Shown here piece by piece: positions 2,944-28,630 of a DNA stretch of 64,000 nucleotides; the stretch's first letter is position 1; each line of letters begins with the position of its first letter. The notes beneath the pieces are model-generated. The model saw only the letters and a list, made by a program, of their open reading frames with translations. It was not told where the DNA came from and did not search any database. The stretch spans positions 62,001 through 126,000 of the forward strand of contig JACPAN010000002.1 in the NCBI GenBank assembly GCA_016180815.1, written 5' to 3'. This DNA comes from Elusimicrobiota bacterium. Lineage in GTDB: Bacteria; Elusimicrobiota; Elusimicrobia; JACQPE01. Made by a program: the position numbers and the translations under genes.

Positions 2944-4380
2944 ATGTGTGGAATTTTCGGCGTTACTCACAATAAAGACGCGAGTTATTTGACTTACCTG
3001 GGTCTGCACGCTTTGCAGCACCGGGGGCAGGAGGCGGCGGGTATTGTCAGCACAGGCGGTGAGTCTTGCTTGCGCGCCGTGGCTTCCGGTTTGGTGGATG
3101 AGGGCATCAAACCCGAAATCTTGAAAGACTTGACCGGGGATTTTGCGGTCGGGCACACGCGCTATTCAACGTCCGGCGGCTCGCTGGAGAGAAACGCGCA
3201 GCCCTTGATGGCGTACAACACGCCGGTCGGGGAATTGGCCATCGCGCATAACGGGAATATCCCCGGGTACAAAGAGATGCGCGCTTCCCTGCAGCACAAA
3301 GGCGCTTTGTTTTACAGCGAGTCGGACACGGAGGTGCTGCTGGTGGCCATCGTCCAGGAGATTCAGCGCGTGCACGCGCGCCGGAAAAAAGTCACGCCCA
3401 GGCTTTTGGCTTATTGCATCAACCGCGCCTTGGCTTCCATCGAAGGCTCGTATAGTCTTCTGTTGTTGATGCCTGATTATTTGGTGGCGGTGCGCGATCC
3501 GGGCGGGGTGCGGCCCTTGACCATGGGCCGGTTCAACGACGGCTATGTTTTTGCGTCGGAAACCAATGCGTTCGATTTAATCGGCGCCCAGGTGGAGCGG
3601 GAAGTGAAGGCCGGGGAAATTTTGGTCGCGCCCAGAAAAGGCAAGGTTCAGAGTTTTGCGTTAAAGCCCAAGCATGCGTCGTCGAAAGCCGGGAGCCTGC
3701 CCTGCGTTTTTGAGCTGGTGTATTTTGCGCGGCCGGACAGCGTTGTGTTCAGTCAGGACGTTTACCGGGCCCGCCGGGAAATGGGCCGGCGCTTGGCCGA
3801 GGAAGCGCCGGTGCCAGGGGCGGATTGCGTGATGGCGGTCCCGGACTCCGCCAGCGTTCAGGCCTTGGGCTACGCGCAATGCCTGGGCCTGCCCTTGGAA
3901 GCCGGTCTGGTGCGCAGCCACTATATCGGCCGGACGTTCATCGCGCCGAAGCAAACCATCAGGGATTTTGCCGCGCGCTTGAAATTCAATCCGGTGCGCG
4001 GCCTGCTGCAGGGGAAAAAAGTGGTGGTCATCGATGATTCCATCGTGCGCGGCACTACGTCCAAAAAAATCATCCGCTTGATCAGGGAAATCGGCGGCGC
4101 CAAAGAAGTGCACATGCGCGTGGCCAGCCCGCCCATTGCCTGGCCGTGTTTTTACGGCATCGACATGCCCACGCGTAAAGAATTAATCGCTTCCGGCCAT
4201 TCGGTGGAGGAGATTCAGAAATTTTTGGGAGTGGACAGCTTGAAGTATCTTTCGTTGGAAGGTATGCTGGCTGCGGCCGGGGGAAATCAGGATTCGTTTT
4301 GCCATGCCTGCTTTAGCGGGCGCTACAGAATCGCTCAGGAAGCCGTGAAAAAGAGTTTGGCCGAGGAAGCGAGGGGATGA
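2944..4380 (+). CDS. purF: Amidophosphoribosyltransferase PurF
   Basis: PurF catalyses the first committed purine step, PRPP plus glutamine to phosphoribosylamine. The sequence opens MCGIFGV, so after Met removal Cys2 is the N-terminal Ntn nucleophile. An in-frame stop (the purQ stop) lies just upstream, so there is no propeptide, unlike the Bacillus enzyme. The PRPP loop VVVIDDSIVRGTT is present. Cys residues in CVFELVYFARPDS, in PCFYGIDM and in the C-terminal CHAC fit the four ligands of the [4Fe-4S] class. It is 478 residues long and lies 9 bases after purQ. Confidence 0.96.
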   Translation: MCGIFGVTHNKDASYLTYLGLHALQHRGQEAAGIVSTGGESCLRAVASGLVDEGIKPEILKDLTGDFAVGHTRYSTSGGSLERNAQPLMAYNTPVGELAIAHNGNIPGYKEMRASLQHKGALFYSESDTEVLLVAIVQEIQRVHARRKKVTPRLLAYCINRALASIEGSYSLLLLMPDYLVAVRDPGGVRPLTMGRFNDGYVFASETNAFDLIGAQVEREVKAGEILVAPRKGKVQSFALKPKHASSKAGSLPCVFELVYFARPDSVVFSQDVYRARREMGRRLAEEAPVPGADCVMAVPDSASVQALGYAQCLGLPLEAGLVRSHYIGRTFIAPKQTIRDFAARLKFNPVRGLLQGKKVVVIDDSIVRGTTSKKIIRLIREIGGAKEVHMRVASPPIAWPCFYGIDMPTRKELIASGHSVEEIQKFLGVDSLKYLSLEGMLAAAGGNQDSFCHACFSGRYRIAQEAVKKSLAEEARG

Positions 4381-4396
4381 CGAATACCCGGCAAGT

Positions 4397-5659
4397 ATGA
4401 AAGTTTTAATCGTGGGTTCCGGAGGGCGTGAGCATGCGCTCGGATGGAAAATCAAGCAGGAAAGCTCTTCGACTCAGCTGATATTCGCTCCGGGCAATGC
4501 CGGGACCGAATTATTGGGAACCAATGTCAAAAAAACCGACGATACCTCTTGGGCGTCTTTGGCCAATAAGCTGGGTGTTGAGATGGTAATTTTCGGCCCT
4601 GAGTCGCCGTTGGCCGAGGGCGCGGCGGATGATTTGACCCAGTATGGATTTAAAGTGTTCGGAGTCGGGCGCATGGCCGCGCAATTGGAGGCGTCCAAAA
4701 TTTTCGCCAAAAATTTTTGCCAGCGCTACCGAATCCCCACGGCCGCGTACAAGGTGTTCGACAAACTGGGCCCGGCGCTCGATTATTGCGAAAAAGCCCC
4801 GTATCCATTGGTGATCAAGGCGGACGGCTTGGCTGCGGGCAAGGGCAGCGTCATCGCCGAAGATTGGCCGTCGGCTGAGGCGACGCTGCGTTCGTTCATG
4901 GAAGAGCAGAGTTTGGGCGATGCCGGGCGGCGCATTGTGGTTGAGGAATTTTTGGAGGGGCCGGAACTGTCCCTGTTGGCTTTTTTCGACGGGTCGCAGT
5001 ATGTGCTGCTGCCCCCGTGCCGCGATTACAAGCGCTTGAAAGACGGGCATGAAGGCCCCAATACCGGGGGCATGGGCGTGATCGCGCCGGTTCCCGTTGA
5101 CCGCATGCTGTTGCCGCGCATCAATGAAGCAATTCTCGAACAATTCAGGATTGGGTTGGAAAAAGAGGGGATTCTTTTTAAAGGGGTTATTTATTTCGGC
5201 TTGATGCTGACGCCCAAGGGCCCCTATGTTTTGGAATTCAACGTGCGCTTCGGCGATCCGGAGGCCCAGGCGCTGGTTCCGTTGGTTGATTTGCCTTATT
5301 TGGAGTTGATGGAGGCCACGCATCAGGGCATGCTGGCTAAATTTTCCCACGATTTATTTTTGCGCGAACTCGAAAACCGTCCCCGGGCCTCGACTTGCGT
5401 GGTGATGGCGTCCGAGGGATACCCTCAGGAATCTGTCACCGGGCGGCCCATTACCCTTGATTCCGCGGCTGCGGGAGGCGCCCTTGTTTTTCATGCCGGA
5501 ACAATGAAAAAGGGCGATCAGGTGTTGACCAACGGAGGCCGGGTTTTGTCCGTGGTGGGTACGGGACGTTCGCCGGATGAGGCCCGGCGCATGGCTTACG
5601 GCGGAGTTGCTAAAATCAAGTTCGAAGGCATGCAATTTCGAATGGATATAGGAGCCTAG
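4397..5659 (+). CDS. purD: Phosphoribosylamine-glycine ligase PurD
   Basis: PurD joins phosphoribosylamine and glycine using ATP, the second purine step. The 420-residue protein begins with the GAR synthetase signature VLIVGSGGREHALGWK. Its ATP-grasp core includes VIKADGLAAGKG, the loop GPNTGGMGV and the metal-binding LEFNVRFGDPEAQ near residue 280. The length is normal for the family (about 420-430). It follows purF by 16 bases and precedes purE by 13, within the pur-pyr operon. PurF and PurD are often adjacent because the phosphoribosylamine intermediate is unstable. Confidence 0.96.
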   Translation: MKVLIVGSGGREHALGWKIKQESSSTQLIFAPGNAGTELLGTNVKKTDDTSWASLANKLGVEMVIFGPESPLAEGAADDLTQYGFKVFGVGRMAAQLEASKIFAKNFCQRYRIPTAAYKVFDKLGPALDYCEKAPYPLVIKADGLAAGKGSVIAEDWPSAEATLRSFMEEQSLGDAGRRIVVEEFLEGPELSLLAFFDGSQYVLLPPCRDYKRLKDGHEGPNTGGMGVIAPVPVDRMLLPRINEAILEQFRIGLEKEGILFKGVIYFGLMLTPKGPYVLEFNVRFGDPEAQALVPLVDLPYLELMEATHQGMLAKFSHDLFLRELENRPRASTCVVMASEGYPQESVTGRPITLDSAAAGGALVFHAGTMKKGDQVLTNGGRVLSVVGTGRSPDEARRMAYGGVAKIKFEGMQFRMDIGA

Positions 5660-5672
5660 GCAGGGAGCTGAT

Positions 5673-6158
5673 ATGGTTTACATTATCCTCGGTTCTAGAT
5701 CCGATCTCGAGTACGGCAAGGCGGCTTTAGGCGTGCTGGAAACATTCGGCGTCAAAGGCTCGTTGCGGGTTGCTTCGGCTCACCGGGCTCCGGCCTGGCT
5801 GCACGAAGTGATTAAAAAAGGCGAGAAAGCGGGCGTGAACGTTTTTATCTGCGCGGCGGGCGGCGCCGCGCATTTGCCCGGGGTCGCCGCGTCCTTGACC
5901 ACGCGCCCGGTCTTGGGCGTGGGCATTCCGGCCAAATATTTGGGCGGACTCGATTCCCTGATGTCCCTGATTCAAATGCCTGCGGGCGTGCCCGTGGCTT
6001 TTTGCGGGCTGGGAGATACGGGCATGAAAAACGCGGCTTATTGCGCGTTGCAAATTTTGGCGCTCAACGATAAAAAACTTTCCGCGAAGCTTGATGAATA
6101 CAAAAAGAAACTCGAAAGAGAAAATCGGGAGGCCAATGATGGCGCCAAGGTTGGCTAG
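5673..6158 (+). CDS. purE: 5-(carboxyamino)imidazole ribonucleotide mutase PurE
   Basis: PurE rearranges N5-CAIR to CAIR. The 161-residue protein has the N-terminal phosphate-binding GSRSDLEYGKAA, the catalytic SAHRAP motif (around residue 36) and the glycine-rich AAGGAAHLPGVAA. A GGGAG-like ribosome site (gggag) sits six bases before the ATG. No purK is visible, so class I (mutase) versus class II (AIR carboxylase) cannot be settled here. Its last 20 bases overlap the preferred pyrB start. Confidence 0.93.
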   Translation: MVYIILGSRSDLEYGKAALGVLETFGVKGSLRVASAHRAPAWLHEVIKKGEKAGVNVFICAAGGAAHLPGVAASLTTRPVLGVGIPAKYLGGLDSLMSLIQMPAGVPVAFCGLGDTGMKNAAYCALQILALNDKKLSAKLDEYKKKLERENREANDGAKVG

Positions 6159-7125
6159 CGAGAAACGCCCGGTTAAAAAAGCGGCGAAATCAACGGCGCC
6201 GTCGCGGCATTTGCTGACTTCAGCCGAATTGCCCAAAGTATGGGTTGAAGCGCTGTTTGACGAAGCCAGGCGCTTTAAAACGGCGGAGAAAGCCGGCCAT
6301 CCCTGGTCCGAGGATTTGAAAGGGCAGCATGTCGGCCTGTTATTTTTCGAACCCTCGACCCGAACGAGGGCGTCGTTTCATATCGCGGCCAAGCGTTTGG
6401 GCGCGGATCCCGTGACCGTTGAAATCGCGTTTTCCAGCGTGCAAAAGGGGGAATCGTTGGAAGACACGGTGATGACCATGGAGGCCATGGGCTGTCATTT
6501 TTTGATCATCCGCCACGGCGAAGCCTTGTCCGGGCAGCGTGCCGCGCGCGTGGCCAAAAAAGCCCATATCATCAACGCGGGCGACGGCTCCCACGAGCAT
6601 CCGACCCAGGCTTTATTGGACACATTCACGGTTTTAGAGCGGCGCGGCTCATTAGCCGGCGGCACGGTTTTATTCTTGGGGGACATTCTGTTTTCACGCG
6701 TGGCGAGATCGAATATCGAGCTGTTGAAAACCCTGGGCGTTAAAAACGTTATCGTTTCCGGCCCGCCGAGCTTGATGCCCTCCGAAGAGGAGCTGGAAAG
6801 CTGGGGTATTTCTTATGTGCCGGAGCTCAACAAGGCCCTGGCCCAGGCGGACGTGGTGCACGTGCTGCGCGTGCAATTGGAGCGACACGGGCAGAAAATG
6901 CCCATGACCCCGGGCTCCTATCGGGAGGCTTGGGGCTTGACCGAGGAGCGATTGGTCAAGTTCTGCAAAAAAGACGTTTTGATTTTTCATCCCGGCCCCA
7001 TGAACGTGGGCGTTGAAATCGATCGCGAGGTGGCGGACGGGCCGCATTCTTGCGTGCTCGATCAAGTGGCCAACGGGGTTTTTATCCGCATGGCCATTCT
7101 CAAGCGCCTCCATCAAGCCTGCTAG
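6139..7125 (+). CDS. pyrB: Aspartate carbamoyltransferase catalytic subunit PyrB
   Basis: PyrB condenses carbamoyl phosphate and aspartate in pyrimidine synthesis. The carbamoyl-phosphate loop FFEPSTRTRASF, the HPTQALLD segment and the C-terminal HPGPMN are all visible. The start at 6139 is preferred because GGAGG at 6128-6132 lies six bases upstream. ATG 6136 is an equal alternative, and a 6091 start would overlap purE more deeply. From 6139 it has 328 residues, with a short basic N-terminal tail of about 20 residues compared with the usual 305. The stop shares a base with the pyrC GTG. No pyrI was seen. Confidence 0.95.
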   Translation: MAPRLASEKRPVKKAAKSTAPSRHLLTSAELPKVWVEALFDEARRFKTAEKAGHPWSEDLKGQHVGLLFFEPSTRTRASFHIAAKRLGADPVTVEIAFSSVQKGESLEDTVMTMEAMGCHFLIIRHGEALSGQRAARVAKKAHIINAGDGSHEHPTQALLDTFTVLERRGSLAGGTVLFLGDILFSRVARSNIELLKTLGVKNVIVSGPPSLMPSEEELESWGISYVPELNKALAQADVVHVLRVQLERHGQKMPMTPGSYREAWGLTEERLVKFCKKDVLIFHPGPMNVGVEIDREVADGPHSCVLDQVANGVFIRMAILKRLHQAC

Positions 7126-8452: not shown

Positions 8453-8851
8453 TTAGGCGGGTTTATTCCTACGCACGGCGTGCGTTTGAATCCAAACCGA
8501 TATTTTCTGCTCATCCGGCTTTGAACCCGAAGCCACGCTTAAAATCCATTGAAATTTTTCTTCCTCCGTCGCTTTGATATCCCATCCGTTGATCCTTAAA
8601 AAAAGCCGCATCGCTTCAAACCCCGTGCGTTTATTGGCATCGACGAAGGGATGGTTTTTGACGATGGAATGCAGGAGGGCGGCGGCTTTGGAAAATAAAT
8701 CAGGGTATAAATCCTGCCCCCCGAAACTGGCCCGAGGCCTGTAAATAGCTGATTCTAAAAGTCCTTGATCCCGGACTCCGGGAGCCCCTTGGGAAGTCTC
8801 CAGAATCCGCTTATGAAGGAAAAGGACTTGGGTGGGGTAAAGGTATTTCAA
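8453..8851 (-). CDS. Fic/Doc-family toxin (death-on-curing type)
   Basis: This is a 132-residue Doc-like protein. The Fic-core motif reads HPFVDANKRTG (His67 to Gly77), with Ala where Fic AMP-transferases have Gly, as in Doc. Doc toxins are kinases that phosphorylate EF-Tu; whether this one does is inferred only from the family. The start is TTG, overlapping the antitoxin stop as TTGA, which indicates translational coupling. The upstream partner is a ribbon-helix-helix protein rather than the Phd fold usually paired with Doc. Confidence 0.88.
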   Translation of the reverse strand: MKYLYPTQVLFLHKRILETSQGAPGVRDQGLLESAIYRPRASFGGQDLYPDLFSKAAALLHSIVKNHPFVDANKRTGFEAMRLFLRINGWDIKATEEEKFQWILSVASGSKPDEQKISVWIQTHAVRRNKPA

Positions 8852-9072
8852 GCGTCGGAAAGACGCCGCAGTAAATTACGGTCTTCCTGCAATAAATCTT
8901 CGACTTCGGTCCGCAAATACGGCGTGATGACGTCTTCGGCATGGCGGCGCAGCACCAAAGCGATCCCTTCTCTAACCAATTCCGATTGCGGAATGCGTGT
9001 TTTCAGGGAAAGCGCTTTGAGCGCATCAATCGTTTTCTTATCAAGCTTAGTGGTAAAGGGTTTAAGTTCCAT
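8848..9072 (-). CDS. Ribbon-helix-helix antitoxin/repressor
   Basis: A 74-residue protein starting MELKPFTTKLDKKTIDALKA. The pattern (beta strand then two helices with IPQSELVREGI) fits a CopG/Arc-type ribbon-helix-helix DNA-binding domain. The rest is a charged helical tail suited to neutralising the downstream toxin. It is the first gene of the two-gene unit. Its promoter lies only eight bases upstream and overlaps inverted repeats, which suggests autoregulation. No ribosome site is visible before its ATG. Confidence 0.82.
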   Translation of the reverse strand: MELKPFTTKLDKKTIDALKALSLKTRIPQSELVREGIALVLRRHAEDVITPYLRTEVEDLLQEDRNLLRRLSDA

Positions 9073-9080
9073 ATATATTG

Positions 9081-9120
9081 ATATTACCAGCTAAGTATTG
9101 TCTTGTCAATACCATATCAA
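9081..9120 (-). promoter_or_regulatory. Toxin-antitoxin promoter with operator-like inverted repeats
   Basis: On the minus strand a perfect -35 TTGACA (complement of 9104-9109) and -10 TAATAT (9081-9086) are separated by 17 bases. GTATTG (9095-9100) and CAATAC (9107-9112) form an inverted repeat across the -35. An outer pair TTGATAT (9078-9084) and ATATCAA (9114-9120) flanks it. The -10 ends eight bases before the antitoxin ATG, which implies a leaderless or nearly leaderless transcript. Confidence 0.75.
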
Positions 9121-9134
9121 ATCACAACCGTGGC

Positions 9135-11726
9135 TTACTTGTTTTCCGATGACAACAGGGCCGGGCGTTTCAAATCCCAGCAGCGCAGCCAGGGGTTGTC
9201 GCCTAAATTGCGGACGGTTTCATACCCGGCGCCGCAAATAAACCCGCCGTTAAACGCGAGCGCGTAGCCCGCGTCATAATTATCGTCTTCGCCGTTGTAG
9301 CCGAAAGAGCTGATCAAATTGCCGTCCGGGTGATAGCCCTGGACCCAAACATCCAGAGACTGCCCGGGGACGCGGACCTGACCGATGACGAAAATGCGCC
9401 CTTGTTCGTCGACGGCCACGTCGTTCCAGGAATTCTCTCCGTGCGTGGGCCCTTTTTCTTTGACGGCCCAAAGTTTAGCGCCATCCTGATCCAAGACGCT
9501 GAGCATGGCTGAGGCGCCGCCGCCTTCATCGGGGTGAATGCCCGCCGCAAAAATACGGCCCCGTTGATCCACAGCCACGGCTTCGCCCATGCCCTCGTCG
9601 CTTTTGCTCCACTTCACCGTCAGGTTGCGGTCGAGTTTCGTGATCCAGTATCCGGCGTCGCGCAATGTTTGGGTCGACCGGTACACCGTGGCCAGGACAT
9701 AGGCTTCGCCGTTGTTGGCGGCGATATCGTTAATCTCGCTCATTTTGACCGGCCCTCCAAAACGCGCGTCCATGGGCCAAAAAAAATCTTTTTTGATTTT
9801 TCCCGTTTCGGAATCCACAATCCAGAGAAGCGCTTGATCGAGCGAGGTGTCGATGTTGTCATCGGAGGTTTCATGGCAAGACGTTTCTTTGCCGGCGGCC
9901 AACAGATGACGGCCGAGGAAAGCAAGGGAGGTAATTTCAGTCGCGTTGGCGCAGGAGCCGGGTTCGCGTTGCCATAAGAGCCGTCCGTCCGGGGAAAATT
10001 TGGCGATCCAGGCCCGCAGTCCATCCCTGAGCTGCTTGCCCTGCGCGCCGGCGGCGTAAATATTTCCTTCATCATCCAGGGTGACGGCGTGAAACAGGCT
10101 TTCTTGTCCCGCCCGGATATTCTCGGTCCAGGACCATCCGGGATTTCCCTTGCCGTCGATTTTTTGAATCCAGGCTTTGCGTTTTCCTGATTTGCCGTGA
10201 TGATGGCCCGCAACCAGGAAGCCGCCGCCTTGAGCGGGGGCCATGGTTTCAATGATGCCCCTGTTAGAGGACGCCCAAGCGGCGTCAAAAGCCACCGGCC
10301 CTCTTTGATAAGGCGGTTTCCCCGGCGCCACCACGGGGATGGCCAGGATATCGTCTTGGCCGCTCGTCAGGGATTTGCCGGGGAAATGGGAGCAATAGGC
10401 GTTTTCAATATAGTCCTGCAATTCGCTTTTGTCCCAGCTTTTCCAGAGGGAAAGGATTTGTTTATGAAACGGTGAGATGGCCGAGGGCGAAGCTTTTTTC
10501 AAGAAAGCGGCCTGGACGCTGAACGCGCGGAATTCCCGTTCCACGGTGGAGATGGGATTATCCGGCCAATCATCCCAAGCGTGCCGCAGCTCATGGGTCA
10601 GAAAGGCGGCGACCTCGTCGTCAGCGGCTTCTTGCGGAGCCAGGAATTCCGTGCTCAACTCGATGCGGCGTTGATTGTTTTGATGCACGTACATGCCCTT
10701 GACCCCTTCTCCGAACAGATAAGAGAATTCGATGTTCAGCTTGGAACGTTTTTGGAAATCGGTGAGTTTAGTCAGTTCCTTGCGGGAAGCGATCAGGTCC
10801 AAAGCCCGTCTGATTTTTTCCCGGCCCACACGCTTGAGCGTTCCCGCGCTTTTTTCTTTAAGGCTGAGGGTTTTAAAGACGGAAATATAATCCTTCATCA
10901 CGGCGGCATCCGCGCGAATGATGCCGCGCAAGGGCTCGGGTGCTGACGCGTATTTTTCAAGCATCAACTTTACGATGGCGTCCATGGTGTCTTTGGCTTG
11001 CATGGCGATTTCCACATGAATCAGCGATGTCTGGCGGACGGGCTTCAAACGCGCCGCTTCTTTAGCCCAATTCATCATGGCCTCATTGTTGACATAGGGC
11101 CAGCGAGCCAGCGTCTGCCAGTCGTGATCGTCGGGGCTGCGGGCGTAGAGGCGCCCCGGCGCTTTGAGGTTTTGGAATATGCGCCCGGCGTCTGCGACCG
11201 GCGCTATGAGATTTCGATCCGGCTTTTTCCCGTAGGCGATGACGAACGTCGTGTGGTATTGAATCGTTCTGGCGGCTTTGGCCAGGCTTTCGTAATAGAC
11301 GGCCAATCGTTCGAGGTCTTTGTCGCTGACGAGAACGTCCTCGGCCGACGGCTCCCAATTGTCTTGAGGAGGCTGCATTCGTTGTTGGCAATGGTTTTCA
11401 ATGCGCCGCGGCGTCAAGCCTAAATCAGGCGGCACAAGCCCCGGCTGTTCTCGATGCCGCTGTTCTTGCTCGCCGGTTTCAGGCACGGCCAGACCGAGGG
11501 AGGGATCATCGGCCCCGCCGGATGCGAGGGTCGGGGTGTTGACCTGGTCGATATAGGCTTTTTCTTCTTGGGTGGCTTTCGCCATGCGGCGGTATTCCCG
11601 GTCGAGATTAGGCGCCGTGATGCCGGGCGCGGGGATGTCCGGGTCCACGACGAGGCGGATCAGGGACATGGCAGCCGCGGTCACGACGATCGCGGCCCCA
11701 AGAATGAAGAGGAAGGATTTTTTCAC
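9135..11726 (-). CDS. Exported HExxH metallopeptidase-like protein with C-terminal beta-propeller
   Basis: An 863-residue protein not assignable to a named family. Residues 1-27 form a signal peptide or anchor (KKSFLFILGAAIVVTAAAMS). A helical region carries FLTHELRHAWDDW near residue 379, a plausible HExxH zinc site. From about residue 490 to the end run repeats of the type GNIYAAG..., GRIFAAG..., GRIFVIGQ with Trp-rich ends, like delta-60/SBBP propeller blades. The start is GTG. Unlike the 1203-residue protein at 56855-60466 it lacks a sorting-like C-terminal domain. A peptidase role is inferred from the motif alone. Confidence 0.7.
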   Translation of the reverse strand: MKKSFLFILGAAIVVTAAAMSLIRLVVDPDIPAPGITAPNLDREYRRMAKATQEEKAYIDQVNTPTLASGGADDPSLGLAVPETGEQEQRHREQPGLVPPDLGLTPRRIENHCQQRMQPPQDNWEPSAEDVLVSDKDLERLAVYYESLAKAARTIQYHTTFVIAYGKKPDRNLIAPVADAGRIFQNLKAPGRLYARSPDDHDWQTLARWPYVNNEAMMNWAKEAARLKPVRQTSLIHVEIAMQAKDTMDAIVKLMLEKYASAPEPLRGIIRADAAVMKDYISVFKTLSLKEKSAGTLKRVGREKIRRALDLIASRKELTKLTDFQKRSKLNIEFSYLFGEGVKGMYVHQNNQRRIELSTEFLAPQEAADDEVAAFLTHELRHAWDDWPDNPISTVEREFRAFSVQAAFLKKASPSAISPFHKQILSLWKSWDKSELQDYIENAYCSHFPGKSLTSGQDDILAIPVVAPGKPPYQRGPVAFDAAWASSNRGIIETMAPAQGGGFLVAGHHHGKSGKRKAWIQKIDGKGNPGWSWTENIRAGQESLFHAVTLDDEGNIYAAGAQGKQLRDGLRAWIAKFSPDGRLLWQREPGSCANATEITSLAFLGRHLLAAGKETSCHETSDDNIDTSLDQALLWIVDSETGKIKKDFFWPMDARFGGPVKMSEINDIAANNGEAYVLATVYRSTQTLRDAGYWITKLDRNLTVKWSKSDEGMGEAVAVDQRGRIFAAGIHPDEGGGASAMLSVLDQDGAKLWAVKEKGPTHGENSWNDVAVDEQGRIFVIGQVRVPGQSLDVWVQGYHPDGNLISSFGYNGEDDNYDAGYALAFNGGFICGAGYETVRNLGDNPWLRCWDLKRPALLSSENK

Positions 11727-23182: not shown

Positions 23183-23563
23183 TTAATATTTCGGAACCGA
23201 CGGGTCGATATCCGACCAGGCTTCGATGCCGCCGGAAAGGTTTTTGGTGTTGGTAAATCCGCAGTTTTTAAGGTGCCGGACGGCTTTCAATCCGCGCACG
23301 CCTTTGTGGCAGTAGACGATCAATTCCGTGTTCGGGTCGAGTTCCGTTTTGCGCTGGTCAAGTTCGGCCAATGGGATGAGTTTCGCGCCTTCGATTTTCG
23401 CGGTTTCGTATTCCCACGGTTCGCGAACGTCCAGCAGGTTCACCCGTTCGCCGTTGTCCAGGCGGCTTTTGATTTCCCGGGCGGCGACGTTCTCCTCGCC
23501 GGGCGTCTGATCATAGCGGTTGAAGAGTGGAATCATCAATTTTCTTGAGGATACCAACATCAT
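23183..23563 (-). CDS. Single-domain rhodanese-like sulfurtransferase
   Basis: A 126-residue protein with the rhodanese core NLLDVREPWEYETAKIEGA and the catalytic loop YCHKGVRG (Cys in position for persulfide). No signal peptide is evident, so it is likely cytosolic. Starts at 23563 or 23536 are both possible; the longer one is given. It is the first gene of a two-gene unit with the NDH-2 fusion. Its start lies 21 bases from the inverted-repeat element at 23584-23856. Confidence 0.88.
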   Translation of the reverse strand: MMLVSSRKLMIPLFNRYDQTPGEENVAAREIKSRLDNGERVNLLDVREPWEYETAKIEGAKLIPLAELDQRKTELDPNTELIVYCHKGVRGLKAVRHLKNCGFTNTKNLSGGIEAWSDIDPSVPKY

Positions 23564-23583: not shown

Positions 23584-23856
23584 AGGGTCCGTTAAGGAAT
23601 TAATGATCAATTTGGAGGCCCAGATTTGCACCGAATGCTAGGCGCGACGACGACAGCGTACCTAGAGGGTACGTTGAGGAGGAGCAACGACGCAGCCGGT
23701 GCGAAGATGGGCCTCCCCGAAGGGCCGGGGCGCTTTTGGGCTGCGGCTGCGTTGCCGCGAGGCTTACGTGCCCTGCGGGCACGCCGCGCCTCGCGGCGCC
23801 TTGCCTCGCTCCAAAATCGCCCCGGCAAATTGATCATTAATTCCTTAACGGACCCT
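23584..23856. repeat. 273-bp element with 31-bp perfect terminal inverted repeats
   Basis: The ends (23584-23614 and 23826-23856) are perfect reverse complements over 31 bases. Inside are further stems: GGAGGCCCA (23614-23622) with TGGGCCTCC (23708-23716), CGTACC/GGTACG around 23667, and CCGCGAGGC/GCCTCGCGG around 23756-23800. No transposase or other convincing gene fits inside. No clear target duplication is seen. It looks like a MITE or a heavily structured RNA element between divergent genes, ending directly at the next start codon. Confidence 0.75.
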
Positions 23857-24096
23857 ATGAATCGAGGGGGATTTTGCCCGGCCTGGCTGGTGGTGATCGC
23901 GTTTATTTGTTCGCCCTGGCCTCTTTACGCGTACCTGGATCCCGGCAGCGGCAGCATGATGGCCCAGTTGATCGTGGCCGGGGTCGCCGGCGTCGCGGTG
24001 ATGTTGAAGCTTTTTGCCAGGCGGCTTCTCGGCAGGTTGGGTCTGATGAAACCGGAGGAACAAAGAAAAAACAAGCCCGGCCGGGATTCCCAGTGA
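23857..24096 (+). CDS. Small membrane protein with YLDPGSGS motif
   Basis: A 79-residue protein: an N-terminal hydrophobic segment or signal (PAWLVVIAFICSPWPLYA), the motif YLDPGSGSMMAQ, a second hydrophobic helix (LIVAGVAGVAVMLKLF) and a basic tail. Small proteins with a YLDPGxGS motif are widespread and of unknown function, often beside methyltransferase or sulfatase genes (general knowledge, not checked). The ATG at 23857 abuts the inverted repeat, so an upstream ribosome site is missing. Its stop overlaps the next start as GTGA. Confidence 0.75.
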   Translation: MNRGGFCPAWLVVIAFICSPWPLYAYLDPGSGSMMAQLIVAGVAGVAVMLKLFARRLLGRLGLMKPEEQRKNKPGRDSQ

Positions 24097-25496
24097 AAGA
24101 AACCCGCGTCGATCCGGCTTCCTTCCGCGACGGCGCCAACAGAGTGATGGTCGGCAACGGCGAGGTTTGGCGCTGCCTCAGCGAGGAGGGTCTTCGCAAC
24201 TGGAGATGCCTTGCTTCCAAAGATTTTTATCGGCGTTTTTTGAGCTTGGGGAATCTCGTCGAAACCCGGGAAATCGACGCGGCGCCGGGCGTCTGCCGGC
24301 TGCCGCCCGGCCATTGGCCTGGGCTTCTGCGGCATCGTCCCGTTCGTTTCCTATCCTATCCCTATGAATGGACGTTCGGCATGCTTAAGGACGCCGCGCT
24401 CCTGCATCTGGAGCTCTTGCAAGCCGCTCTTGCGGAGGGGATGATTCTAAAGGATGCGTCCGCTTTTAATATTCAATGGGAAGGGAGCCGCCCGGTTTTC
24501 ATCGATATCGGATCTTTTCGTCCTTATGCCGATGGAGAGCCCTGGACGGGGTACCGTCAGTTTTGCCGGCTTTTTCTCTATCCCCTGATGCTGCAGGCGT
24601 ATAAAAATATCGCTTTTCAAACGTTGCTGAAAGGTTCTCCGGAAGGCATCAAGCCGCGCGATTGCCGCAATATGATGTCGTTGCGGGACACGCTGAGGCC
24701 GGGCGTCCTGACCCACGTGCGCCTTCATGCGGCGATGGAGGACCGCTATGAATCCCAGGACAGCGACGTCAAGGACGAGCTTCGTTCAAGCGGGTTCAAT
24801 AAAAGCCTGATTCTTAAGAATATCGACGGCCTGCGCGCCATCATCGGCGCGATGAAGTGGACGCCGGAACATTCCTCCTGGTCGGGTTACTATCAACACA
24901 ACAGCTATGTCGAGCAGGATGAGCGGATGAAAAAGGCATTCGTCGCCGAGGCCGTGGATTCGCGTTCCTGCAAGCTGGTCTGGGATTTGGGGTGCAATCG
25001 GGGTGTTTTTTCGCGATTAGCCGCGGTTAAAGCCGATTATGTCGTTGCCATGGACGGCGATGCGGCCGTGATCGAACATTGTTATGGGGAACTTAAAAAC
25101 AACGGCGATCGTTCCATTGTGCCCCTGGTGATGGATTTTGCGAATGTCTCTTCGGGAGGCGGCTGGCGGGGGCTTGAATTCAAGGCCCTTGAGGCGCGCG
25201 GTCGCCCGGATTTGGTTCTTTGCTTGGCGCTTATTCATCATTTGGCCATCAGCGCCAATATTCCGCTTGCTCAAATTGTGGATTGGCTTGCCGATGTTTC
25301 CGGAGCGCTGATCATTGAGTTCATCGATGAAGCCGATCCCATGGCCCGCAGGCTGTTGAGAAATAAAGACGGCGGTCTTGCCGATTATTCAAGGGGTTAT
25401 TTTGAAAAACTCTTGAATGAAGCCTTCGACGTTCAAAAGCGCCAGGAACTCACCTGCCGCACCCGGGTGCTTTATTTTGCGCAAGCTAAGTCTTAG
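24093..25496 (+). CDS. SAM-dependent methyltransferase with N-terminal unknown domain
   Basis: A 467-residue protein starting at GTG 24093, fixed by the GTGA overlap with the small membrane protein. The N-terminal half is not a recognised named domain. It contains ILKDASAFNIQW and FIDIGSFRPY, which recall kinase-like LKDxxxxN...IDIxS patterns. The C-terminal half has a class I methyltransferase motif I, VWDLGCNRGVFSRLAA (around residue 295), then MDGDAAVIE (motif II acid) and LCLALIHH. It probably acts on a cell-surface glycan or lipid, given its sulfatase-like partner, but that is inference. Confidence 0.78.
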   Translation: MKETRVDPASFRDGANRVMVGNGEVWRCLSEEGLRNWRCLASKDFYRRFLSLGNLVETREIDAAPGVCRLPPGHWPGLLRHRPVRFLSYPYEWTFGMLKDAALLHLELLQAALAEGMILKDASAFNIQWEGSRPVFIDIGSFRPYADGEPWTGYRQFCRLFLYPLMLQAYKNIAFQTLLKGSPEGIKPRDCRNMMSLRDTLRPGVLTHVRLHAAMEDRYESQDSDVKDELRSSGFNKSLILKNIDGLRAIIGAMKWTPEHSSWSGYYQHNSYVEQDERMKKAFVAEAVDSRSCKLVWDLGCNRGVFSRLAAVKADYVVAMDGDAAVIEHCYGELKNNGDRSIVPLVMDFANVSSGGGWRGLEFKALEARGRPDLVLCLALIHHLAISANIPLAQIVDWLADVSGALIIEFIDEADPMARRLLRNKDGGLADYSRGYFEKLLNEAFDVQKRQELTCRTRVLYFAQAKS

Positions 25497-27579
25497 ACGT
25501 CCGGACGCCGCTCTTGTCGATCGCGATTTTTTAATCGACAGCCTGCATCTTTTCGGGCTGGTCAATTTTGCTTTGGCCCAGCCTCTGTACGATCTGTTGG
25601 CCCGCCATGCGATTTTTTTCGTGATGCGCGAGTCCTCCGGAGCGGATATCGTTGCGTTGACGCTGACGTTGAGCCTGCTCGTCCCGGCGCTTCTTGTTTG
25701 CTCCGAATGGATCGCCGGCCGCCGGGGCGAAAAACCGCGCCGGCGGGTGCATGGTTTTTGGGTGGCCTTGCTGGCGGCAGCCGTTTTTTTGCCGCCGGTT
25801 AAAAAAGTAGCCGCCGGTTTTCTTCCCGGCGCGGGCCTGATCTCGGCGGCCTGCGTTCTGGGAGCGTGGACGCTGATCTTGCTGCGGCGTTTCCGGCCGG
25901 CGCGGACGTTTTTAACCGCGCTTTCGCTGGCGGCTGCGGCGTTTCCTTGTTTATTTTTGGCCGCTCAGCCGATCAGGAATATGCTTGTTTCCGGCGTTGA
26001 GTCGGTATTTTATACGCACGTCGCCAAGCCGGCTCCCGTGGTTTTCGTGGTGTTCGATGAGTTCGACCGGTCGAGCCTCTTAAATGAGCGCCGCCGGATT
26101 GACGCCGTTCGTTATCCGCACTTTGCCGCGTTGGCCAAGGATTCGACTTGGTTTCGCGAGGCCACGGGCGTCTCCGACGGGACCTCATTGGCGTTGCCGG
26201 CCATCCTGACGGGGTCTTATCCGGGACTCGACGGCCATCTTCCGCTGACCTACTCTTATTACCCAAGGAATCTGTTCACTCTTTTGGGTAGAACTTATGA
26301 AATGAATGTTTTCGGTTCTGCGCGAAAAATGTGCCCCAGCCCCTTGTGCAAGGAAGAGGCCTTCATCGAAGACGCCGCGCAGCGGATGCGCGGCTTGATC
26401 CTTGATTGTTTCCTTGTTTACCTGCATATCGTGCTTCCGGAGGATATCGTTTTCATCCTGCCGTCGATTACGCAAAAATGGAAAAATTTCCGAGGGGACC
26501 AGTCGCAAGAACTTCATGACGGGCCGTTGGCGGTTTACGGCAAGTTTATGGATTCGCTCGCTCCCGCCGGAGGGCGCCCTGCTTTGTATTTTGCGCACAT
26601 AACCCTGCCCCATGCGACCTGGCGTTTTTTTCCTTCCGGCAGAGCCTATGCGGCGCCGGATGAAATACCGGACGGTTTTGATTTACAGAACGGCCTATGC
26701 TCTCGGGATGATTGGCTGGTGACCCAGGCCCATCAGCGCTATTTGTTGCAGGTCGGCTTCGTGGATCATTTGTTGGGCGATCTGGTGGCCAAGCTTAAGG
26801 CTTTGGGCCTTTACGACCAATCGTTGATCATTGTCACCGCCGATCACGGCGTCAACATCCGGCCCGGGATGCACAATCGCAAGCTCTCGAAAGTCAATGC
26901 CGCGGAGCTTCTTTATGTGCCGTTGTTCGTCAAGGCTCCCAATCAGCGCGCCGCTTTAGTCAGCGACCGCAATGTCGAGACCATCGACATCATCGCGACC
27001 GTCGCAGAGCTTTTGGGGATCGCCATTCCTTGGCCCATGGACGGGCAGTCCGCGTTCGATACGAATCGGCCGGAGCGCCGGAAAAAAATTGCGGTCACGA
27101 GCGTCAAACCCAGGAAGATGATATTTCATGCGCCTTTACAGGACGCCGCCGAGGCGTTTAAGAGGCGGGCGGCTGTTTTTGGCTCCGGAACGCCATGGCG
27201 TGAAATTTTCAACATCGGTTCGCGCAAGGAGATCATCGAGCGCAGCGCCGAAGCGCTGGCTGACGGGGATAGTCCGGATTTAACCGTGGTTGTCGAGCGG
27301 GAAAACCGTTATGCGCGCGTCGATCCCGGGTCCGACGATGTCCCATGTTTGATCAGGGGACGATTGTCCGGCCCAAGAGCGCGACGGACGCCGCTTTATT
27401 TGGCCGTTGCCGTCAATGGGATTATCCGGGCGGTGACCAGGAGCGTTCCTTCGGCGTCGAAGGGAGCTGTTTTTTCCGTCCTGGTGCCGGAGGATGCGCT
27501 GCGCCGCGGCCGCAATGAGATCGAATGCTATTTGCTTTTGGATTCCGGCCGTTTGCTGCGGGTACCTAGGGCGCGCTGA
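25477..27579 (+). CDS. Membrane-anchored sulfatase/alkaline-phosphatase-superfamily hydrolase or transferase
   Basis: About 700 residues from TTG 25477, which overlaps the methyltransferase by 20 bases. No ATG lies near the conserved beginning. Roughly five transmembrane helices fill the first 180 residues. The catalytic domain begins at VVFVVFDEFDRSS (metal-binding Asp). It continues with SDGTSLALPAILTG (Thr/Ser nucleophile in the position used by LtaS and EptA-like transferases) and VTADHGVNIRPGMHNR (metal ligands). The fold suggests phospho- or sulfo-group transfer on envelope glycans at the outer face of the inner membrane. Substrate unknown. Confidence 0.82.
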   Translation: MRKLSLRRPDAALVDRDFLIDSLHLFGLVNFALAQPLYDLLARHAIFFVMRESSGADIVALTLTLSLLVPALLVCSEWIAGRRGEKPRRRVHGFWVALLAAAVFLPPVKKVAAGFLPGAGLISAACVLGAWTLILLRRFRPARTFLTALSLAAAAFPCLFLAAQPIRNMLVSGVESVFYTHVAKPAPVVFVVFDEFDRSSLLNERRRIDAVRYPHFAALAKDSTWFREATGVSDGTSLALPAILTGSYPGLDGHLPLTYSYYPRNLFTLLGRTYEMNVFGSARKMCPSPLCKEEAFIEDAAQRMRGLILDCFLVYLHIVLPEDIVFILPSITQKWKNFRGDQSQELHDGPLAVYGKFMDSLAPAGGRPALYFAHITLPHATWRFFPSGRAYAAPDEIPDGFDLQNGLCSRDDWLVTQAHQRYLLQVGFVDHLLGDLVAKLKALGLYDQSLIIVTADHGVNIRPGMHNRKLSKVNAAELLYVPLFVKAPNQRAALVSDRNVETIDIIATVAELLGIAIPWPMDGQSAFDTNRPERRKKIAVTSVKPRKMIFHAPLQDAAEAFKRRAAVFGSGTPWREIFNIGSRKEIIERSAEALADGDSPDLTVVVERENRYARVDPGSDDVPCLIRGRLSGPRARRTPLYLAVAVNGIIRAVTRSVPSASKGAVFSVLVPEDALRRGRNEIECYLLLDSGRLLRVPRAR

Positions 27580-28630
27580 AGGGTTCGATGGAAACCCCTT
27601 GGGCCAATTGAAGCTTGGTCATGGTTTGTTCGCTGACCTCGCCGGGGTGAGCCCAGGCCGGGCCGGCCGGTTCGATTAAGACATAGGTCGTTCCCCTGTA
27701 TTCGATATAAGCGTCGCCGCGGTCGGGCACTCCTTCAAAACCCATGACATAATGCCCGGGCAGGCCGACGCCGACGATTTTGGCGGCGTCCCAATTAAGA
27801 AGAATCGAGGCCAACAGCGCTGTTTTTGTGTCGCAATCACCCCACCCGGAGACCAGGGCCTTGATGGGAGTTAGGACGCCTCCGGTATGTAAGGACCCTT
27901 CCATGGCCGGAGGTATTTTGTATTCAAGCGCGGTCTGGATCATGGCCGTGACCGCGCCGATCAAATCTTCGGAGCCGTAATTGTTTTTTTCGCGGATGAG
28001 GTCGAATTGCGCGGCGACCGGCATCAGCCGCCGGACGTTGTTGCGCACGAGCGCCGGAATATCCACGGTCACGGTATTGCCGGGCAAGAGTTTGAAACCT
28101 TGGCGTTGAAAATAAGCGACGCGCCGTTCTTCGTATTCGGTTTGGAGGTCTTTTATTTTCCGTCGCTGCGCAGTCTCGAGATTTGTATTGTGCGCGCGAA
28201 CGGCGGCAACCTTACGGTCGAGTTCCGCTTGGTTTTTGGCGGAAACCGAGCCCGACACCCAATCGCGTTTTAAATCGCGATTCGTTTGCTGCTGGGTTTC
28301 CTCCAGCCATGTATCGACCGCTTCCAAGCCCGCGTCCGTATAGCCGAATTCTGTGATCGCCTGATTAACGATACGCTGATCCATTTGAAACCGGACCGAA
28401 TGCGGCTCGCGGTCGAAACTGACGAAGCCGAATTCAAGGTTGAACCCGGAATTATTCCGACGGATGCGCTGATAAGGCGGTTCCGCGGTTTCCTCCTGAT
28501 CCGCTTCACCCGAGTCCGCGAAGAGCGTTTCCCGGAGCCGGCCGGCGGGAGAATCCCAATGCCAGGCGAGCCCTGTTTCCAAGGCGAAAGAAAAGAAAAG
28601 GACAGCCGGAATTCGGCGCATCCCAGGCAT
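27566..28630 (-). CDS. Exported transglutaminase-like protein
   Basis: A 354-residue protein with an N-terminal signal sequence (RRIPAVLFFSFALETGLA). After a charged, partly coiled region (residues 95-180, rich in Glu, Arg and Gln) it has a transglutaminase-like core. That core has GWGDCDTKTALLASILL (catalytic Cys near residue 266), GLPGHYVMGFE (His) and a later YIEYRGTTYVLIEP strand with an acidic residue. Such domains may be proteases or cross-linkers. It lies one base after the DUF350 gene and converges with the sulfatase gene, overlapping its end by 14 bases. Confidence 0.8.
   Translation of the reverse strand: MPGMRRIPAVLFFSFALETGLAWHWDSPAGRLRETLFADSGEADQEETAEPPYQRIRRNNSGFNLEFGFVSFDREPHSVRFQMDQRIVNQAITEFGYTDAGLEAVDTWLEETQQQTNRDLKRDWVSGSVSAKNQAELDRKVAAVRAHNTNLETAQRRKIKDLQTEYEERRVAYFQRQGFKLLPGNTVTVDIPALVRNNVRRLMPVAAQFDLIREKNNYGSEDLIGAVTAMIQTALEYKIPPAMEGSLHTGGVLTPIKALVSGWGDCDTKTALLASILLNWDAAKIVGVGLPGHYVMGFEGVPDRGDAYIEYRGTTYVLIEPAGPAWAHPGEVSEQTMTKLQLAQGVSIEPFSAP

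Follow-up and report, generated by a model that had tools for sequence, protein, structure and literature searches.

We analysed a 64,000-nucleotide stretch of an Elusimicrobiota genome (contig JACPAN010000002.1, positions 62,001 to 126,000; hereafter the window), which carries on its forward strand a compact cassette of three genes between positions 23857 and 27579. The first gene (23857..24096, ATG start) translates to P0001, a 79-residue YLDPG-type small membrane protein. The second (24093..25496, GTG start) encodes P0002, a 467-residue kinase-methyltransferase fusion of the NoeA family, and the third (25477..27579, TTG start, with an alternative in-frame ATG at 25417) encodes P0003, a 700-residue NoeB-like membrane enzyme of the alkaline phosphatase (AP) superfamily. 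An earlier interpretation made from the DNA letters alone (the sequence-only reading) had described the three genes as overlapping and translated together; the coordinates confirm this geometry, with an overlap of 4 bases (GTGA) between genes 1 and 2 and of 20 bases between genes 2 and 3.

P0002 aligns with NoeA of Ensifer/Sinorhizobium at 32% identity over 97% of its length (E 8e-59). A tblastn search of plasmids with gene 2 returned 65 records, 57 of them from Sinorhizobium, and the Ensifer match is annotated noeA. Pfam gave weak methyltransferase matches below cut-off and nothing else. A full-length model built from 63 aligned rows has a mean predicted local distance difference test score (pLDDT) of 92.4, and its C-terminal half (residues 259-467; 24867..25493) has a predicted class I S-adenosylmethionine (SAM)-dependent methyltransferase fold, with NodS as best match (Z 18.1, 180 residues, 2.8 Å). 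Because the whole-protein fold search was informative only on the methyltransferase half, we folded the N-terminal half (residues 1-258; 24093..24866) alone, at a pLDDT of 92.0. All of the top 50 Foldseek rows for this half were protein-kinase-fold chains (best E 9.7e-5, template modelling score about 0.43), as were all of the top 50 VIA-align rows (Z up to 11.0, about 195 residues, 3.8-4.2 Å); these counts include the RNase L and pre-40S rows, which are kinase-fold chains. Across all 63 rows, the candidate catalytic positions R27, D121, N126 and D138 do not vary. The sequence-only reading had seen a two-part methyltransferase whose first half was kinase-like, and had proposed comparing that half with kinase folds. 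Both segments it relied on, ILKDASAFNIQW and FIDIGSF, are present in P0002, and on the predicted structures the kinase-like N-terminal half holds.

This suspicion was right, but the kinase-methyltransferase architecture is already in print: Legionella Lani_1194 and NoeA have both been predicted to have an N-terminal kinase-like and a C-terminal methyltransferase domain, with Lani_1193 (65%) and Lani_1195 (38% of 816) as conserved neighbours (PMC9758233). The Lani_1194 family shares with the cassette an active-site Asp/Asn/Asp, a NoeB-like AP-fold neighbour and homology to NoeA (PMC9758233), and P0002 has the family's Asp/Asn/Asp site, its Arg in place of Lys and its C-terminal class I SAM methyltransferase domain. 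Lani_1193 may be the YLDP protein, in which case the YLDP linkage would already have been published. The Legionella proteins have been called putative effectors (PMC9758233); the broad spread of the cassette fits an envelope role better. NoeA and NoeB are named as host-specific nodulation proteins in the available text of PMC10945364, and their function is given as hypothesis in the available portions of PMC9048898 and PMC9758233.

One could instead suppose that the kinase half serves as a pseudokinase or as a fold for substrate binding. Only the methyltransferase would then act, methylating a glycan that is lipid-linked or Nod-factor-like, and the third enzyme would take an ester off that glycan. 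The motifs of this half are atypical (KDxxxxN, FID), Arg rather than Lys is the candidate ATP-site (adenosine triphosphate) residue, the ion-pair Glu is not found in PMC9758233 either, and the best methyltransferase match, NodS, is a Nod-factor N-methyltransferase. However, four candidate kinase residues invariant across 63 rows are more than a dead fold would predict, and we consider this alternative unlikely, although it is the strongest of those weighed here.

We then examined the surroundings of gene-2 relatives in 90 loci chosen by similarity to P0002, comprising the best 80 of 570 relatives and ten earlier loci (L009-L018). Gene calls in these loci were based on open reading frames (ORFs), and some gene-2 overlap lengths come from first-start ORFs rather than true starts. 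A small-protein match lies on the same strand, no more than 600 bp from the gene-2 relative, in 86/90 loci, three of which (L074, L087, L090) are at contig ends and lack the motif. In the remaining four, the small protein is divergent (L014), about 2 kb away (L083) or not nearby (L024, L070); the L070 genome has a YLDP-type gene elsewhere, adjoining an AP-type gene. Counting AP-type genes on the same strand, one follows gene 2 directly at its 3' side in 43/90 loci and one is found within 3 kb in 52/90; with both strands counted, 69/90 loci have one within 3 kb, the last figure read from the table by eye. Because the small protein is present in 86/90 loci and a directly following AP-type gene in 43/90, the constant pair is the small protein and the kinase-methyltransferase, with the third gene common only.

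The three-gene order, whose conservation outside this genome the sequence-only reading had made its own test, recurs in plasmids of Ensifer, Rhizobium and Novosphingobium. Ensifer canadensis pT173b and Rhizobium T1470 carry nodL, a small protein, noeA and a sulfatase-like gene (noeB in pT173b), and the unnamed small proteins of these operons read ...AHAYLDPGTGS.... The nodL-noeA-noeB host-range operon of Sinorhizobium/Ensifer and Rhizobium thus has the same order as the cassette, including an annotated 71-residue YLDPGTGS protein before noeA, and NoeB is sulfatase-like. Unlike that operon, the cassette lacks nodL and any nodulation context, although no search for a nod box was made; its host is unrelated, and its substrate may be something other than a Nod factor. 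In Novosphingobium PP1Y the small protein, NoeA and NoeB again follow one another in this order, with the motif YLDAASAS; in Singulisphaera an unannotated YLDPGSGS frame precedes the gene-2 relative; and in strain Smac51 the order is AP-type gene, methyltransferase, small protein.

The small protein defines what we call the YLDPG family: a single hydrophobic helix comes after the pattern Y-[LI]-D-[PA]-G-[ST]-G-S, and motif position 12 is Gln. In P0001, the YLDPGSGS string already noted by the sequence-only reading occupies residues 26-33 (23932..23955), immediately after ...LYA, where a cut of the signal-peptidase type would fall, and the protein consists of a signal-peptide-like lead, the motif, one transmembrane segment and a basic tail. 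It fits the motif columns conserved among 86 rows including itself (Y in 85, D in 84, G7 in 79, Q12 in 72), and the model of its relatives, which includes P0001 itself, matches it at E=4.8e-23. P0001 has no Pfam match, and a scan of 48 members found no Pfam or NCBIfam model for the family; weak matches to PF20134 (1/48) and to a beta-lactamase model (2/48) were taken as chance. Viral contigs gave two pattern matches, neither a relative, and a literature text search found the motif string in no paper. The YLDPGxGS domain, which lacks a family model, and the survey of its linkage described below are new here.

The lead before the motif is at least 17 residues long in 61/85 small proteins, 54 of those 61 having a signal-peptidase-like -3/-1 pair, and in 21/85 the motif is at the very N-terminus (lead of at most 8 residues). 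The net charge after the helix is positive in 63/85. Because of both lead-length classes and the tail charge, we predict that the motif lies at or near the N-terminus on the outside of the membrane and the mostly basic tail inside.

Gene 3 matches PF00884 (E=5e-20), a family with only two matches in the whole genome from which the window comes. A hydropathy scan found five segments, the number of helices given by the sequence-only reading, but only four are clear N-terminal ones (58-76, about 94-116, 118-136, 145-163), and the fifth (311-329) is inside the catalytic part. We aligned 79 AP-type proteins, namely P0003 and those found in the 90 loci. The predicted nucleophile, T236 of P0003 (codon 26182..26184), sits in GTSLALPAILTG, and its column is Thr in 70/79 proteins and Cys in three, which are distant true-sulfatase-like genes. 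The other site columns are kept as well (D194 in 73/79, D456 in 75/79, H457 in 60/79). Formylglycine sulfatases have a Cys/Ser-x-Pro-x-Arg nucleophile motif, and P0003 has Thr instead. LtaS, YejM and the phosphoethanolamine and phosphoglycerol transferases use a Thr nucleophile and, like gene 3, combine N-terminal membrane helices with an AP-type domain; P0003 has the helices together with the Asp, Thr and Asp-His site residues of such enzymes, although its NCBIfam matches all score far below the cut-offs. Given the Thr nucleophile, a sulfatase is unlikely, and P0003 is better named a Thr-type enzyme of the AP superfamily. The earlier assignment to the sulfatase superfamily is therefore correct only as a superfamily label; judged by its site residues, P0003 appears to be a hydrolase or transferase of the phospho type.

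A neighbourhood survey across phyla, also proposed by the sequence-only reading, was made by searching the YLDP alignment in 1,293 genomes from six sampled phyla, named from the centre loci and not including Bacillota. The domain was found in 16/198 genomes of the cassette's own phylum, 4/198 of Bacteroidota, 10/299 of Pseudomonadota, 15/199 of Planctomycetota, 26/201 of Chloroflexota and 23/198 of Actinomycetota. Removing 7 places in centre genomes from a total of 108 left 101, each viewed with up to about 6 kb per side. This survey was not selected for NoeA, and its counts exclude L233-L235, whose genomes had been chosen for NoeA; many of the loci searched with the small-protein model had also served to build it, and the AP-type query set includes proteins of 15 survey loci. 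NoeA is present within 6 kb at 73/101 places, at 69 of them within 300 bp on the same strand, and an AP-type gene at 79/101. At least one of NoeA, an AP-type gene, a CDP-glycerol-type (cytidine diphosphate-glycerol-type) transferase or a PEP (phosphoenolpyruvate) mutase is near 98/101 places. NoeA is missing at 28 places, of which 23 carry an AP-type gene and 16 a CDP-glycerol-type transferase. For comparison, 28 survey genomes (about 105 Mb) contain 276 PF00884 matches, or about 2.6 per Mb and 0.03 per 12 kb. This background is narrower than the AP-type search used for the survey, but the gap is still large. Pfam alone finds PF00884 in 37/56 and 12/23 of the survey AP-type genes.

The survey also revealed fusions. 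At 11 places in ten genomes of the cassette's own phylum, the YLDP domain starts a larger CDP-glycerol glycerophosphotransferase-like protein; eight of these fusions are whole, L117 is cut by a contig end, and L120 and L121 are broken copies with disrupted frames, the L120 genome having an intact copy, L126. Both fusions tested (L119, L125) contain PF04464. In L119, a gene beside the YLDP-transferase fusion (8629-11277) joins a YidC-like domain (PF02096) to PF00884, and 8/23 AP-type genes at places without NoeA match PF02096. In L248 the domains are swapped, with YidC-like and PF04464 domains in one protein (4325-6490) and YLDP and PF00884 in the next, the single case of YLDP fused to an AP-type enzyme. 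We also observed a YidC/Oxa1-like domain (PF02096) beside YLDP in L122 (169-2694), where the remainder of the protein is matched by similarity only.

At three further places (L128, L241, L251) the small protein is in or beside PEP-mutase operons, which also contain a decarboxylase-like gene, an Fe-type alcohol dehydrogenase, a CDP-glycerol-type transferase and AP-type genes; the PEP mutase (PF13714) was demonstrated for L241 and the Fe-type alcohol dehydrogenase for L128. An apparent PEP mutase beside NoeA in L256 may be another member of its superfamily, and we do not rely on it. Phosphonate-glycan clusters (pepM, aepY, phpC) bring together PEP mutase, thiamine pyrophosphate-dependent decarboxylase, Fe-type alcohol dehydrogenase, CDP-type transferase and AP/arylsulfatase genes, and arylsulfatase and other surface-polymer genes are reported beside phosphonate genes in the accessible part of PMC9381506, which fits the finding of YLDP genes in PEP-mutase operons. 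The phosphonate-cluster text available from that paper does not mention the YLDP protein. The three operons thus add the YLDP protein to a phosphonate-type gene set, whereas the cassette in the window has no PEP mutase. The small protein is not specific to the NoeA/NoeB-type unit.

These partners also bear on whether the YLDPGxGS protein might itself be the substrate in a peptide-product system, a precursor that its neighbour phosphorylates and methylates and that is processed outside. The protein is small, single, adjacent and co-translated in most loci, and its motif has conserved Ser/Thr residues (position 8 in 77/86 rows, position 6 in 76/86). Yet CDP-glycerol-type transferases and an AP-type enzyme carry this domain as a fusion and it is found in PEP-mutase operons without NoeA, the motif is predicted to lie outside, away from ATP and SAM, and the readable motifs of L027 and L086 lack Ser/Thr at both positions (L015 was listed too, mis-anchored by the pattern). 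We regard a precursor peptide as improbable. From its shape, the differing cytoplasmic phospho-transfer partners and the usual outer AP-type enzyme, the small YLDPGxGS protein is best read as a membrane adaptor.

We propose, at roughly even confidence, that the three genes form a NoeA/NoeB-type unit that phospho-decorates a glycan or glycolipid, either in the envelope or secreted. The sequence-only reading had suggested modification of a surface glycan or lipid by unknown chemistry; the surface part of that suggestion is retained, and the affinity is now known. From the computed folds, candidate catalytic residues, Thr-type site, cross-phylum linkage and YLDP fusions we infer how such a unit might work, in activity, contact and topology alike. 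The cytoplasmic kinase-methyltransferase would both phosphorylate and methylate the substrate, perhaps with the methyl group on the new phosphate. On the outward side of the membrane, the AP-type enzyme, if it acts as its family suggests, would cut or transfer the phospho-group or a related phosphodiester. The small protein, with its motif at or near the mature N-terminus outside, one helix across the membrane and a mostly basic tail inside, may hold the cytoplasmic and outer enzymes at one site.

The precedent for such chemistry is WbdD of E. coli O9a, an O-antigen chain terminator that phosphorylates a sugar and methylates the phosphate, according to the available part of PMC3482155. WbdD too combines a kinase and a SAM methyltransferase in one protein and, in the same available text (PMC3482155), recruits a partner to the membrane, which we count as a likeness to the cassette. 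Its methyltransferase half resembles that of P0002 (Foldseek rank 8; phmmer E 0.037-0.068). However, WbdD is ordered methyltransferase, kinase, coiled coil, whereas P0002 has the kinase before the methyltransferase and no room for a coiled-coil tail, and unlike WbdD the cassette has no transporter genes beside it in the window. Because the domain order differs, we do not file P0002 as a WbdD.

WbdD also argues against a signalling or regulatory device, in which a protein kinase and methyltransferase would modify envelope proteins with the small protein as sensor. The fold matches are indeed to protein kinases, but fold class is silent on substrate, and the eukaryote-like kinase fold of WbdD acts on a sugar (PMC3482155, available part); since no regulator or receptor genes recur among the listed loci either, we think a signalling role very improbable. 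Just as hard to sustain is the idea that P0003 is a genuine sulfatase, or simply a phosphatase, and functionally unconnected with genes 1 and 2: the PF00884 'Sulfatase' label and sequence matches to sulfatases favour it, but the nucleophile is Thr rather than Cys/Ser in 70/79 relatives and AP-type genes occur at 79/101 places against about 0.03 expected per 12 kb.

Several observations weigh against phospho-decoration by a NoeA/NoeB-type unit. No glycosyltransferase adjoins the three genes in the window, and in L029, L040, L077, L084 and L085 the genes around NoeA look like housekeeping genes, none of those in view being a glycan gene. Within the small protein, conservation is highest in the outward motif and lower in the proposed cytoplasmic contact surface, and in 22/85 small proteins the tail has no net positive charge. 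As for the linkage, PF00884 is missing in 30/79 AP-type calls, which were made by similarity to linked AP proteins, some of them also matching PF01663 and a few weak (29-45 bits), and a simple regular expression misses the catalytic His/Asp pattern in 28/79 AP-type genes. NoeA is alone, with no AP-type gene detected, at 16/101 places (5 near contig ends), and 3/101 places (L240, L252, L318) have no partner, two of them with a divergent Y-x-GPG motif.

More tentatively, and short of even confidence, YLDPGxGS may be a membrane module not described before, and the mark of a general machinery that places phosphate- and phosphonate-type groups on envelope polymers. The inner partner would be exchangeable (kinase-methyltransferase, CDP-glycerol-type transferase or phosphonate pathway), the outer partner would usually be an AP-type enzyme, a YidC-like domain would be optional, and NoeA/NoeB would be one specialised branch. 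NoeA and NoeB influence which Medicago species a rhizobium nodulates, and both their membership in a widespread unit and the presence of the same small membrane protein in phosphonate and CDP-glycerol-type systems point to phospho-type chemistry for them. Under this reading, an overlooked decoration of the methyl-phosphate type may be present on the Nod factors or surface glycans of Medicago symbionts and depend on the unnamed small gene that precedes noeA, and YLDPGxGS would serve as a sequence tag for finding phospho-decoration clusters in many phyla.

The distribution of P0002 looks as if it had been acquired by transfer. A supported split (100/98) in the tree parts P0002 from the same-phylum rows L005-L008, of which L008 is a very long branch, so that 4/5 same-phylum relatives lie across it, although the tree does not settle the exact position of P0002. 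P0002 is also up to 50% identical to relatives from other phyla but only 30-37% to those from its own.

The cassette is flanked by likely genes at 23183-23563 and 27566-28630, which we take from their translations to be rhodanese-like and transglutaminase-like, respectively. Both lie on the strand opposite to the cassette, which therefore stands as a unit of its own with three genes only. A palindromic repeat element (23584..23856; arms of 51 nucleotides, 82% complementary) abuts the start codon of gene 1, leaving that gene no room for a leader of its own, and may affect expression. A promoter scan found 2 sites versus 1.7 expected. The repeat has 25 matches in its own genome, counting itself and its reverse complement; among these are two other copies at 95% identity, one of 273 bases and one of 219 bases at a contig end.

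Two groups of proteins stand apart from the usual pattern. L159 and L160 (G694:C19 and G520:C4) encode weaker relatives or look-alikes that have AYVGPGLG or AYIGPGLG together with a signal-like lead and a single helix and that end in WYPIK/WYPVK; the usual partners are absent. In two Chloroflexota genomes (L244, 6507-8498; L245, 6750-8768), where NoeA is not nearby, a short MYIDPNTGG protein directly precedes a PF01663 type I phosphodiesterase.

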